Assembly: GCA_949287085.1 (NCBI GenBank)
Contig: CASEER010000005.1
Span: 1-64,000, forward strand
Length of the DNA: 64,000 bases
Direction of reading: 5' to 3'
Origin: an uncultured Coriobacteriaceae bacterium
GTDB lineage: Bacteria; Actinomycetota; Coriobacteriia; Coriobacteriales; Coriobacteriaceae
Within the stretch, counting starts at the first letter, position 1. Each line of letters begins with the position of its first letter. The notes beneath the pieces are model-generated. The model searched no databases. It was not told where the DNA came from and worked only from the letters and a program-made list of their open reading frames with translations. Positions 2,077 to 7,115 of the stretch are shown one piece after another. The translations under genes were made by a program, and so were the position numbers.

Positions 2077-2492
2077 CGCGCTGCGGCGACCTCGGCTGAT
2101 TTGTATGACGTTGCAGCGGGTCCGGAAGTGAAACCCCAAGCAAAGAGGTGGTGTTGTATAATTCCCCTCGTCCTCCCAGGCTGTGGTTGCGGGCGTGCCC
2201 CGCACGCCCTAGTCCATGACAGACGCGGTCAAAAGGACCCACGTAAGCACGCATGTGCGCACGCGTGCGATCATGGCGCGTCCTAGAGGTAAGTCGCACC
2301 GTCCGTTAGTGAGGGGCAATTCCGCCCCGCGGGCGAGCGGGCAAGTCGTGATGCCGCTGCGGCGGTTGAGCAAACGTCCCGGTGCGCAGGTGTGGGGGAA
2401 AAGACCAGGTCAGCTGGGGGACAAACGACAACAACCGCTTTGGCGGAGAAGTATAGCAGGCGCTCTCGCAGCGCGTAACAGAAGGCAGGCAT
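2077..2492. other. Intergenic region between comF and the lipoprotein gene
   Basis: These 416 bases hold no convincing gene. The small ORFs here lack ribosome sites and family-like sequence. A perfect TATAAT lies at 2157-2162 without a good -35 at 16-18 bases, so it is only a possible promoter. A purine-rich GAAGGCAGG at 2481-2489 serves the downstream lipoprotein gene. Confidence 0.5.
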
Positions 2493-3751: not shown

Positions 3752-4336
3752 ATGGATATCACGGTCTCGGGACGTAAGACCACGGTAACTGATGCTCTGC
3801 GTGCACGTGTTGAAGAAAAGGTAGGCGAGGCGCTCAAGGTATTTGATATCGAGCCCATGACTGCCGACGTTGTTCTCCGTTACGAAAAGAACCCTTCCAT
3901 CCCCGAACCGGCCATCGTCGAGGTCACCGTGCGCGCACGCGGCTCGGTGATTCGCGTGGCCGAGCACGGCGCCGATATGTACGCCGCCATCGATCTGGCC
4001 GCCGACAAGGTCACGCGTCAGCTGCGCAAGTTCAAGACCAAGGTGGTCGACAACCGTCAACAGGGGCCCTCGGCAGCCGAGGTGGCCCCCATTGAGCCGG
4101 TTGAGGACCTGGCGGACCTGCTGTTGCCGGAAGACGAAGACGACCAGCTCGTGCGCGAGAAGATCATCGACATCACGCCGATGACCGAGGAGCAGGCGCT
4201 CGTGCAGACCGATCTCTTGGGTCACGACTTCTATGTGTTTGAAAACGCCACAACCGGCCTCATCAATGTGGTGTATCACCGTAAGAATGGTGGATATGGC
4301 ATCATCAAGCCTAAGATTGAGAGCTTAGACGAGTAA
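3752..4336 (+). CDS. hpf: Long-form ribosome hibernation-promoting factor
   Basis: At 194 residues this is the long HPF (RaiA/YfiA family) that drives 100S ribosome dimers in stationary phase. The N-terminal S30AE domain starts MDITVSGRKTTVTDALRARVEEKV and binds the decoding region of the 30S subunit. An acidic linker around residues 108-135 leads to the C-terminal dimerisation domain with ALVQTDLLGHDFYVFEN and VVYHRKNGGYGIIKP. AGGAG (3742-3746) lies at good spacing before the ATG. It is monocistronic: a hairpin precedes it at 3574-3616 and an intrinsic terminator follows at 4363-4396. Confidence 0.95.
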   Translation: MDITVSGRKTTVTDALRARVEEKVGEALKVFDIEPMTADVVLRYEKNPSIPEPAIVEVTVRARGSVIRVAEHGADMYAAIDLAADKVTRQLRKFKTKVVDNRQQGPSAAEVAPIEPVEDLADLLLPEDEDDQLVREKIIDITPMTEEQALVQTDLLGHDFYVFENATTGLINVVYHRKNGGYGIIKPKIESLDE

Positions 4337-4411: not shown

Positions 4412-5362
4412 ATGAGCACTGCCGCGTCCGAAGGGTACACGAACCGCTGCCGTATTGCGGTCGATACCTGCTGCGACCTCACGCCCGAGATCGCAGCGAC
4501 CCTCGATGTGGACATCCTGGGCTTCCCGTACATCTTGGATGGGGAGGAAAAAGCCGACGACATCTGGACCTCGATGACGCCCAAGTGGTTCTACGACCAG
4601 ATCCGCAACGGCGTGAAGGCCTCGACGGCGGCGATTTCGGTCGGGCGCTACCTGGAGTACTTTACCGAGTGTGCCGAGGAGGGCACGCCCACGGTGTACC
4701 TGGCGTTTACGTCGGCGCTGTCGTCAAGCTACGAGCACGCGTGCATGGCGGCGGACGAGGTGCGCGCCAAGTACCCCGATTTTGAGCTGTATGTGGTTGA
4801 CAACGCGCTGCCCTGCGCGTGCGGCGAGCTGCTGGCGCTCGAGGCCGTGCGCCAACGCGCGGCGGGCCTTACGGCAGCGCAGCTGGCGCAGTGGGCAAAC
4901 GAGGCCAAGACCTATGTGCACGGCTACTTTACGCTCGACAGCCTTGATTCGCTCGCAGCGGGCGGGCGCATCCCGCCGGCGGCTGCGCAGCTGTCGAGCA
5001 AGCTCGACATCAAGGCAAATCTTTCGTTTGACCTGGCCGGCTCGTTAACGCTTACGGGCGTCAACCGCGGGCGTAAGAAGGCGCTCAAGTCGCTCGTCAA
5101 GGCGTTTAAGGAGAACTACGTCTTGGACCCCAACCTGCCCATGACCATCGTGACCGCCGACTGCGAGAAAGACGGCGATTGGCTTGAGGCAGCCATCCGC
5201 AAAGAAGACGGCTGCGCCGACCTGACCATCATTCGCGGTGCGGTGGGCCCCACCATTGGCGCGCATGTGGGACCGGGCATGGTTGCCGTGATTTTTTGGG
5301 GTAAGAACCGTGCGGACAAGGCGTCGCTCACGGATCGCATCGCCCGCAAGGTACGAGGCTAA
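4412..5362 (+). CDS. DegV family fatty-acid-binding protein
   Basis: This 316-residue protein matches the DegV/FakB family, with a VDTCCDLTPEIA opening, a FTSALSSSYEHA serine-rich ligand motif and TLDSLDSLAAGGRIPP (LEYLKKGGRI-type) in the middle. The C-terminal GPTIGAHVGPGMVAVIFWG segment is the conserved GxHxGPG element. FakB proteins hold a fatty acid while the kinase FakA phosphorylates it for phospholipid synthesis or exchange. No fakA lies nearby, so the specific role is inferred from the family. The gene starts 15 bases after the hpf terminator T-run, so its promoter is either upstream of that terminator or overlaps it. Confidence 0.88.
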   Translation: MSTAASEGYTNRCRIAVDTCCDLTPEIAATLDVDILGFPYILDGEEKADDIWTSMTPKWFYDQIRNGVKASTAAISVGRYLEYFTECAEEGTPTVYLAFTSALSSSYEHACMAADEVRAKYPDFELYVVDNALPCACGELLALEAVRQRAAGLTAAQLAQWANEAKTYVHGYFTLDSLDSLAAGGRIPPAAAQLSSKLDIKANLSFDLAGSLTLTGVNRGRKKALKSLVKAFKENYVLDPNLPMTIVTADCEKDGDWLEAAIRKEDGCADLTIIRGAVGPTIGAHVGPGMVAVIFWGKNRADKASLTDRIARKVRG

Positions 5363-5498: not shown

Positions 5499-6641
5499 AT
5501 GGCAGATACCAAACAGCGCGTTGCGTTTATTGGCACGGGAATCATGGGCGCGCCCATTGCGGGGCACATCATGGACGCGGGCTACCCGCTCACGGTGTAC
5601 AACCGTACCAAGGCCAAGGCGCAGCCGCTCATTGACCGCGGTGCCGTGTGGGCAGATTCGGCCGTTGCCGCCGCCTCCGACGCCGACGTGGTCTTTACCA
5701 TGGTTGGGTACCCCGAGGACGTTGAGGAGCTCTACCTGGCAGGCGATGGCCTGCTTACGGCCACCAAGCCGGGCACCATCCTCATCGACCTCACCACGAG
5801 CTTGCCATCGCTTGCGCGCGATATTGCCGAGGCCGCTGCGGTGAGCGACCGCATGGCGTTTGACTGCCCCGTGACGGGCGGCGAGTCCGGGGCCATCGCG
5901 GGTACGCTCACGGCGATCGTGGGCGCAACCGAGCACGATATCGAGCCGGTGCGCGCCCTGCTTGAGACCTTCACGGCGCGCATATTCTGCTTTGGCGGCG
6001 CGGGCAAGGGCCAGGCGGCCAAGCTCACCAACCAGGTGGCGCTCGCCAGCGCCATGGTGGGCATGGCCGACGCGCTGTCGCTCGCCCAGCAGAGCGGCCT
6101 TGACCTTGAGCAGACCCGCCAGATGATCATGAGCGGCACGGGCGCCTCGGGCGCTATGGAGTCGCTTGCCCCCAAGGCGCTCGACGGAGACTGGAAGCCC
6201 GGCTTTAAGGTCAAGCACCTGATCAAGGACATTCGCTTGGCGCTCGATGAGGCCGAGGAGAAGGAGATAGCCCTCCCCGGCACCGATACCGCCTACGCGC
6301 TCTACGACATGCTCGACGCCATTGGCGGCGCCGACCTGGGAACCCAGGCCATTACCCTGCTCTACCAGGAGGAGGGCGAGGCCGTGGCGGCTGGCCTGGA
6401 TTGGTCGCTCTATACCGAGGCCCACGAGCACGACGATGAATGCGGTTGCGGCCACGACCATGGCGACCATGGCGAGGGCTGCGGCTGCGGCCACGACCAT
6501 GGCGACCATGACCACGAGTGCTGCCATGGCGAGGGCCACGGCCATCATCAGGACGGCGATCACGAGTGCTGCCACGGGCATGGTCACGGCCACGACAACG
6601 CAGACGGCCATGAGTGCTGCTGCGGCCACCACGAGGAGTAA
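5499..6641 (+). CDS. 3-hydroxyisobutyrate-dehydrogenase-family NAD(P) oxidoreductase with His/Cys-rich metal-binding-like tail
   Basis: Residues 1-300 are a standard beta-hydroxyacid dehydrogenase (GarR/HIBADH type). They show the Rossmann motif VAFIGTGIMGAPIAGH, the substrate loop DCPVTGGESGA and the catalytic lysine segment KGQAAKLTNQ with Lys175. Residues 309-380 are an extra tail with about 21 His and 11 Cys in 72 residues, built from repeated CGCGHDHGDHGEG and CCHGHGHGH-like units plus many Asp/Glu. Family members normally end near residue 295. The tail resembles Ni/Zn storage segments of HypB, UreE or SlyD. Its role (metal store, metal-sensing regulation or localisation) is inference. 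The ATG at 5499 follows AAAGGAAC; the frame runs 63 codons further upstream without a ribosome site. The next gene starts 6 bases later. Confidence 0.88.
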   Translation: MADTKQRVAFIGTGIMGAPIAGHIMDAGYPLTVYNRTKAKAQPLIDRGAVWADSAVAAASDADVVFTMVGYPEDVEELYLAGDGLLTATKPGTILIDLTTSLPSLARDIAEAAAVSDRMAFDCPVTGGESGAIAGTLTAIVGATEHDIEPVRALLETFTARIFCFGGAGKGQAAKLTNQVALASAMVGMADALSLAQQSGLDLEQTRQMIMSGTGASGAMESLAPKALDGDWKPGFKVKHLIKDIRLALDEAEEKEIALPGTDTAYALYDMLDAIGGADLGTQAITLLYQEEGEAVAAGLDWSLYTEAHEHDDECGCGHDHGDHGEGCGCGHDHGDHDHECCHGEGHGHHQDGDHECCHGHGHGHDNADGHECCCGHHEE

Positions 6642-6647
6642 GCGCCT

Positions 6648-7115
6648 ATGAGCGATCCGGCCTTCATGATCGTCTTCGTCCTGGTCTTTATCTTTAGCAT
6701 CTACCTGGGCTTTAGCGTGGGCTCGCATGCGGGGGAGCGCGCGGTGACGGGACGCGAGTATTGGGCGTATAACCTGTTCGCCGTCGTTGTGTGCATCATT
6801 GCCACGGCGGTGCTCACCCTGGCGCCGCTGTTGTGCGCGGCGCCGCTCGGCTTTTTGGCTGGCTGCCTCACGGGCCTTAAAATGGGCTACGGCGAGTCGA
6901 TCGGTCCGTGGAAGGTGCTCGATCGGTTCTTTAATGTCAACAAGGGTCAGCGCGCCCGCACAGGACGCGCCAGCAGTGCGGCAACGCGGCGTGCCCGCAA
7001 AACCGGTGCATCTGTGCCCGATTTGATGTCGGTTACCAACGATGCGGCGTCGGCCCACAACGCGCACGCCCACGCGCGCCGCGACGGACGCACCGATACA
7101 CAGAATAAGAGGTAG
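6648..7115 (+). CDS. Small membrane protein of unknown function
   Basis: This 155-residue protein is not recognised. It has two predicted membrane segments, roughly residues 5-26 (FMIVFVLVFIFSIYLGF) and 43-75 (NLFAVVVCIIATAVLTLAPLL onward, running into a glycine-rich AGCLTGLKMGYG). A basic, Ala/Ser/Arg-rich cytoplasmic tail follows. It sits 6 bases after the dehydrogenase gene and 6 bases before the next ORF, so the three are probably cotranscribed. AGGAG within the dehydrogenase stop region (6634-6638) can serve as its ribosome site. Confidence 0.65.
   Translation: MSDPAFMIVFVLVFIFSIYLGFSVGSHAGERAVTGREYWAYNLFAVVVCIIATAVLTLAPLLCAAPLGFLAGCLTGLKMGYGESIGPWKVLDRFFNVNKGQRARTGRASSAATRRARKTGASVPDLMSVTNDAASAHNAHAHARRDGRTDTQNKR

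Follow-up and report, generated by a model that had tools for sequence, protein, structure and literature searches.

Locus and dehydrogenase core

The window analysed here, a stretch of 64,000 nucleotides from an uncultured Coriobacteriaceae bacterium, encodes a beta-hydroxyacid dehydrogenase that continues past its enzyme fold into a C-terminal tail rich in His and Cys (Table 1). The genes of this region follow one another in the order ComF-like protein, solute-binding protein, HPF, DegV-family protein, dehydrogenase, small hydrophobic protein, HEAT-like protein, isocitrate-dehydrogenase-type protein and PPIase-like protein, where ComF, HEAT and PPIase are our own labels. The small hydrophobic protein has no match in Pfam or NCBIfam. 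Upstream of the solute-binding-protein gene, which precedes an HPF/RaiA-type gene (3752-4336), lies a raiA RNA (RF03072, 148 bits; 2170-2422, plus strand); at the dehydrogenase gene the Rfam scan returned no family at gathering score. The initial annotation had suggested that the tail might store metal for a neighbouring function, which found no backing in the neighbourhood: among the seven window neighbours scanned, three of them without a Pfam match, no Pfam or NCBIfam match names a metal gene. In the window's genome (76% complete), one copy of the tailed dehydrogenase gene was found.

Table 1. Features of the tailed dehydrogenase gene and its direct neighbours in the window, and loci of the hydrolase discussed in the text.
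Feature	Position	Strand	Basis or remark
DegV-family protein, immediately upstream of the dehydrogenase	4412..5362	+	Pfam DegV
Whole gene, beta-hydroxyacid dehydrogenase with C-terminal His/Cys tail	5499..6641	+	ATG at 5499, 380 aa, stop included
Dehydrogenase core, residues 1-300	5499..6398	+	Pfam, alignments, AlphaFold2
His/Cys tail, residues 309-380, predicted disordered	6423..6638	+	composition, AlphaFold2
Cys pair 315/317 (CGC), then HDH	6441..6449	+	
Cys pair 328/330 (CGC), then HDH	6480..6488	+	
Cys pair 341/342 in HECCHG	6519..6524	+	
Cys pair 357/358 in HECCHG	6567..6572	+	
Cys cluster 373-375 (CCC)	6615..6623	+	
Small protein with hydrophobic stretches, 6 bases past the stop	6648..7115	+	membrane protein by eye
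Hydrolase loci	L341, L343-L345, L365-L378, L400, L403, L406, L407		module absent in L373, L374; L370 borderline

The beta-hydroxyacid dehydrogenase superfamily is characterized by a GxGxxG motif, a DxPV[ST]GG loop and a catalytic Lys, and all three are present in the window protein. Alignments place a GTGIMG dinucleotide motif at residues 12-17, DCPVTGG at 122-128, and Lys175, Asn178 and Lys243, whose roles we take to be those known from the family. Pfam assigns NAD_binding_2 to residues 7-166 and NAD_binding_11 to residues 169-286 (151.6 and 100.1 bits, both above cut-offs). Since these domains end at residue 286 and the AlphaFold2 model of the core is confident, the dehydrogenase is complete before the tail, as had been noted earlier. 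The protein stays below the NCBIfam equivalog cut-offs that would assign it an exact function as tartronate semialdehyde reductase or 3-hydroxyisobutyrate dehydrogenase (TIGR01505, 205.4 vs 340.75 bits; TIGR01692, 178.5 vs 291.6 bits). The fold search returned L-serine 3-dehydrogenase from Pyrobaculum calidifontis as the nearest solved relative of the core by sequence and fold (40% identity), and tartronate semialdehyde reductase as a further relative of the same fold (32% identity). The matched solved dehydrogenase chains comprise 279-306 residues and stop at the core end, whereas the window protein carries on into its tail, for which no resembling solved chain was found.

Composition and arrangement of the tail

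The tail begins with His309, whose codon starts at 6423, and is closed by the stop codon ending at 6641. Residues 309-380 contain 21 His and 11 Cys, all the His and Cys of the tail, which reproduces the counts of the initial annotation, while residues 1-300 contain just 3 His and 2 Cys. At core His and Cys frequencies, with one added to each count, a chance composition is ruled out by a binomial test (21 His in 74 residues, p 3e-22; 11 Cys, p 2e-10). In the AlphaFold2 model, built with 50 sequences, 300 residues reach a pLDDT of at least 90 and the ten-residue blocks from 311 onward average 41-49, so that the tail is predicted to be disordered. The earlier claim that the tail DNA is repetitive holds in part: Tandem Repeats Finder reports weak repeats (9 bp x 2.3 and 6 bp x 2.5), yet the codons of the HECC[HC]G unit are spaced by exactly 48 bp (6513, 6561, 6609).

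All 11 Cys of the window tail fall in CC, CxC or CCC clusters (Table 1). This pairing extends to the mixed tails of homologues, defined by at least 5 His and 4 Cys, in which 950 of 973 Cys have a second Cys within two residues, compared with a mean of 45% and a maximum of 50% in 200 within-tail shuffles (one fused row left out). Moreover, 257 of the 319 intervals between successive Cys pairs span 11-14 residues and 366 of the 442 pairs are closely trailed by HH or HxH. The conserved feature is thus the arrangement, beyond composition alone.

Distribution in the Coriobacteriales and selection on the tail

In a contig search, from which 80 of 102 loci were kept, mixed tails were present in 24/24 named loci of Collinsella, Enorma and their kin (L002-L025) and in 27 of 43 mostly Atopobiaceae loci (L026-L067 and L072), of which 3 are His-only and 13 neither. 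Outside the class, none of the ten loci readable to the end is tailed (L069, L071, L074-L081; L068 and L073, not readable to the end, were left out). Of the 396 genomes searched in the class, 217 gave a match to the dehydrogenase at E <= 1e-40, and C-termini were read in 209 of these (seven genomes of other orders and one of family f4, G294, left out). From the named loci we infer that our family f1 corresponds to Coriobacteriaceae and f2 to Atopobiaceae, and f3 is, as a guess, Eggerthellaceae.

Mixed tails occur in 59/61 f1 genomes, the exceptions being G171 (Cys-rich, 3 His) and G078 (none), and this speaks against the possibility raised earlier that close relatives lack the tail. Among 102 f2 genomes, 65 have mixed and 10 His-only tails, and the remaining 27 comprise 2 with Cys-rich (L201, L275) and 25 with plain ends; this count leaves out the frameshifted L305. 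One further locus, L310, lacks its N-terminus, and its C-terminus was read. Eight genomes of six small families divide into 4 His-only and 4 neither, and mixed tails are absent from the other orders (0/37). The initial annotation had called the tail atypical of its family, which is right against the enzyme family at large (0/37 in other orders, 0/10 outside the class) and wrong within the order, where, judged by these C-termini, His/Cys tails are the rule. A FastTree phylogeny of 207 cores requires 17 changes between tail and no tail, and 22 with a three-state label, so tails come and go. Five plain f2 tails (L265, L267, L271, L278, L279) share an ARQRY near the end, a distinct short C-terminal motif.

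Selection was assessed in 21 near-relative species (210 pairs), picked by start and length for the same 60-residue tail, so that the constant tail length among them reflects the choice of the set. As to the slipped-strand length variation suggested in the initial annotation, f1 mixed tails at large extend 49-105 aa past residue 300 and vary in length between species. In this set pN/pS is 0.052 for the tail and 0.048 for the core, nine tail Cys columns are invariant, and 14 His columns contain two substitutions, each to Arg, with silent variation at many of the conserved Cys and His codons. Judged by this codon variation, the tail is a translated protein under protein-level selection, and its being in frame with pN/pS 0.052 largely rules out the frameshift or untranslated product considered in the initial annotation. 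An artefact in the wider sense, be it a frameshift, a mis-called stop or a composition-driven repeat that is unused as protein, could draw on the low complexity of the tail and its slightly repetitive DNA; given the same pN/pS and an open frame with a tail in 124 of the 163 f1 and f2 genomes that could be read, we regard it as extremely improbable.

A degenerate carrier that retains a tail

Family f3 gave no dehydrogenase match at 1e-40 in the class search. A tailed homologue, L353, was found there through a pattern search and, used as query, revealed a homologue in 19/20 f3 genomes (L442-L460). Where they align, these proteins are 27-34% identical to the window core, and a profile alignment against f1 and f2 (99.9% probability, 273 columns) still recognises the fold family. 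Their motifs are largely lost: the second Gly of GxGxxG is retained in 1/19, and the GG of the substrate loop, Asn178, Gln179 and Lys243 in none of the 19, while Lys175 is retained in 6/19 and replaced by Arg in 12. With cofactor, substrate-loop and most catalytic motifs missing, they are rejected as canonical beta-hydroxyacid dehydrogenases and seem, from these motifs, to be catalytically dead. The one f4 and the one f6 sequence are degenerate too; those of f5 and f8 are intact, and those of f9 and f10 partly so. The f3 genes are nevertheless, by codon comparison, under purifying selection and not decaying, with core pN/pS values of 0.14, 0.14, 0.15, 0.22, 0.17, 0.42 and 0.28 in seven pairs; their tails are looser (0.19-0.60). 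These tails are acidic, with HxH in 15/19, CC or CxC in 6/19 and a [YFC][ST]xN end in 17/19. As far as motifs and alignments tell, f3 has thus kept the scaffold fold, the DegV gene beside it and an acidic tail that mostly bears His, without the catalytic motifs.

The f3 branch bears on the earlier proposal that the tail couples the redox enzyme to metal sensing: the loss of catalytic motifs argues against such coupling as a general role, and in f1 and f2 it may still apply. In these two families the carrier is probably an ordinary NAD(P)-dependent beta-hydroxyacid dehydrogenase, predicted to be active; by alignment, the core motif columns are conserved in 61/61 f1 sequences, and Lys175 is retained beside the tail in 61/61 f1 and 100/101 f2 sequences, so that enzyme and tail are conserved together. 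This would suit a metal- or thiol-responsive regulation, in which the tail, once metal-loaded or oxidised, switches the dehydrogenase, and so would the reversible inhibition of the SlyD isomerase reported for Ni binding (PMC7055735). However, f3 retains its tail without catalytic motifs, the tail is predicted to be disordered, and in the alignment the tail-less f2 relatives retain the catalytic residues, which makes regulation of this kind rather unlikely.

His/Cys modules on other proteins

A CCGx-H-x-H pattern was scanned in 57 genomes (20 f3, the 25 plain and 10 His-only f2, G078 and G171) and matched in 14, of which eight looked chance-like and six, read in frame, carry modules. Four of these (G118, G206, G110, G200) have the module at the N-terminus of an MBL-fold hydrolase matching PF00753. 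A search for this hydrolase in 80 genomes (78 f2, 2 f1) found it in 77, and a fixed rule applied to all 77 N-termini called a His/Cys module in 15, with G230 as a borderline miss (loci in Table 1). A replacement of the dehydrogenase tail by the hydrolase module finds no support: 10 of the 15 module genomes have a mixed dehydrogenase tail, 2 a His-only and 3 a plain one. In G146 (L358, L362-L364), modules reside C-terminally on a QueE-like radical-SAM protein (68 bits against a cut-off of 260), before an alpha/beta hydrolase and on the f3 dehydrogenase homologue, and in G124 (L350) a module is inserted in a protein that by eye resembles a P-type ATPase.

A second pattern matched in 41 of 59 f1 genomes, where the non-dehydrogenase matches are chance-like or aminotransferase-like, one of them (G046) with the frame closed within the site, and L464 (G173) is the sole exception. 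L464, identified by resemblance, has a His/Cys loop with CGCGHDH and ECCGGHDH units in apparently the same efflux protein as L129, which lies at the start of contig C32 of the window's genome, carries a His-rich loop and matches ArsP_2 and the NCBIfam 'arsenic efflux protein' (177.9 bits, cut-off 100). These efflux proteins resemble the tailed dehydrogenase in their units and differ from it as membrane transporters with the module between hydrophobic parts and no tail. In the window's genome (76% complete), the two patterns, which miss diverged units, returned besides the dehydrogenase just chance-like frames and the efflux-protein loop.

Association with DegV and the downstream gene

The f1-type loci share the gene order of the window, and Atopobiaceae loci retain it in altered form. 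Among loci with enough flank to test, a DegV gene lies directly upstream on the same strand in 30/30 f1, 10/14 f2, 7/8 small-family and 18/19 f3 loci and in 0/36 of other orders. The four f2 loci without DegV (genus g21) have no extension, L159 and L443 are tailed though without a DegV match, and f2 homologues of a DegV-linked type (L219, L235, L244-L246; DegV tested in counterparts among the named loci, L049 and L052 for example) stop 6-13 residues past residue 300. Extension and DegV link thus appear from these loci to go together broadly, not strictly. The tail-less locus of L049 occurs a second time as L050 on the same contig (CADCPM010000056.1), in opposite orientation and with the same neighbours, either through duplication or as an assembly artefact.

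On another reading the extension is primarily an acidic, disordered linker, or a peptide that docks to a partner such as DegV, and its His/Cys richness is secondary. The lineage-specific end motifs, [YFC][ST]xN in 17/19 f3 tails and ARQRY in 5/25 plain f2, fit such a role, as do the 40 DegV-less homologues (36 of other orders and 4 of g21) that have no extension above about 16 residues. A linker leaves unexplained, however, the 98% Cys pairing, the invariant Cys in 21 species and the similar modules on unrelated proteins, and some DegV-linked homologues lack more than the short ends given above, so that we consider it distinctly unlikely.

The small membrane protein downstream was rejected as a needed partner, since several tailed Atopobiaceae loci, among them L030, L042 and L047, have no match or near open reading frame for it. 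In L232 (G086:C1:483500-485200) the frame of a short His/Cys tail continues into the downstream hydrophobic protein, while its genus mate L220 has a stop; sequencing error is a possible cause of this fusion.

Comparison with known metal-binding tails

A CCGGHGH-type unit presumably occurs also in E. coli SlyD. The His-rich stretch of HypB and the His-rich tail of UreE consist mostly of His, not Cys pairs, and belong to nickel maturation proteins, unlike the dehydrogenase carrier described here. In E. coli SlyD, the unstructured tail of His, Cys, Asp and Glu can take up as many as 7 Ni(II), for which it is regarded as a store, and SlyD hands metal on for hydrogenase; a nickel-storing role is also suggested for the metal-binding low-complexity stretch of HypB (PMC7055735). 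The tailed dehydrogenase resembles SlyD in having a disordered C-terminal tail of this composition that differs from species to species and is attached to a folded enzyme (PMC7055735). By composition, Cys pairing and predicted disorder the window-type tail fits the kind of metal tail found in SlyD, and the initial reading of a SlyD-like metal store after a complete dehydrogenase is to this extent supported. The protein is not itself a SlyD: no FKBP-type isomerase domain is present among the five Pfam families found, and the carrier is a DegV-linked dehydrogenase fold with no link to [NiFe] maturation seen, whereas that of SlyD is an FKBP. Another likeness is mycobacterial GroEL1, where a His-rich C-terminus is attached to a protein of other function and model peptides bind Cu(II); the peptides described in the abstract of that study lack Cys, and the carrier is another one (PMC10170517).

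Two markers of metal handling were compared with tail state in 80 f2 genomes. HypA exceeds its cut-off in 26/55 tailed and 18/25 tail-less genomes (plain 18/25, His-only 5/10, mixed 20/43, Cys-rich 1/2), which is the opposite direction (Fisher p 0.028, 79 rows), and independent pairs are not significant; a link to nickel-hydrogenase maturation was thus not seen, HypA being no commoner with tails in f2. ZnuA is commoner with tails (26/55 vs 4/25; plain 4/25, His-only 6/10, mixed 18/43, Cys-rich 2/2; Fisher p 0.012, 79 rows), but six independent pairs give a median p of 0.5 and no trend is left when mixed tails are taken by themselves, so this association was dropped. Co-occurrence with HypA and ZnuA in these 80 genomes thus indicates no particular metal. 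The same data bear on a metallochaperone, whose tail would pass metal to a client such as a [NiFe]-hydrogenase or the MBL-fold hydrolase. SlyD serves hydrogenase in this way (PMC7055735), and the hydrolase, a member of a metal-binding superfamily, has a His/Cys module of its own in 15/77 genomes. Against this stand the HypA counts, HypA being a marker of [NiFe] maturation, and the lack of a recognised metal gene nearby, and we deem a metallochaperone very unlikely.

Interpretation and perspective

We favour, with moderate confidence, the reading that the tail is a disordered SlyD-like multi-site module that would hold metal, storing or buffering it, on a carrier with a dehydrogenase fold. This reading draws on the in-frame selection, the Cys pairing with nearby His motifs, the predicted disorder, the distribution in f1 and f2, the similar loops of L464 and L129, the SlyD precedent, and the tail and DegV link kept in f3. 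Each of the five Cys clusters, most of them near a His-x-His, would offer a metal site, and the bound ions would be soft or borderline, most likely Zn, Ni, Co or Cu. The tailed protein would store or buffer such metal in the cytosol, much as proposed for SlyD, with the fold acting as carrier in general, as an enzyme also in f1 and f2, and with its motifs lost in f3. The beta-hydroxyacid dehydrogenase superfamily is not known to need a metal; together with the motif loss in f3, this makes storage or buffering likelier than a service to the enzyme's own reaction. Metal binding, the identity of the metal and the storage or buffering role are here deduced from likeness and pattern. Besides the lack of a recognised metal gene nearby and the HypA and ZnuA comparisons, two observations run counter to a metal store: 25/102 f2 genomes are plain and tails are often lost or remade (17 changes), and 13/19 f3 tails lack CC or CxC, with 4/19 lacking HxH.

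A bolder reading, which we find possible but doubtful, is that the DegV-linked protein of the Coriobacteriales is at root a metal-handling scaffold and not a metabolic enzyme, its dehydrogenase fold having been recruited to bear a metal-binding tail, and that portable His/Cys modules form a distributed metal store. The modules on the dehydrogenase C-terminus, the MBL hydrolase N-terminus, the QueE-like C-terminus, the region before the alpha/beta hydrolase and the exporter loop would then be parts of one such store.

His/Cys metal tails are already known as a kind, and the dehydrogenase carrier is apparently new: a literature search, whose coverage excluded most subscription papers, returned no report that describes a tail of this kind for the enzyme family or for the order, and none on the f3 branch without motifs or on modules carried by other enzymes. 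In practice, tailed proteins may stick to nickel resin during purification. The f3 branch is a natural experiment that separates fold and tail from catalysis, and the occurrence of such modules on unrelated proteins would illustrate the spread of low-complexity metal sites. If the favoured reading is true, a gene present in one copy and at a constant location offers a defined protein for experiments, and a common order of gut bacteria would keep some of its metal-buffering capacity on ordinary enzymes.
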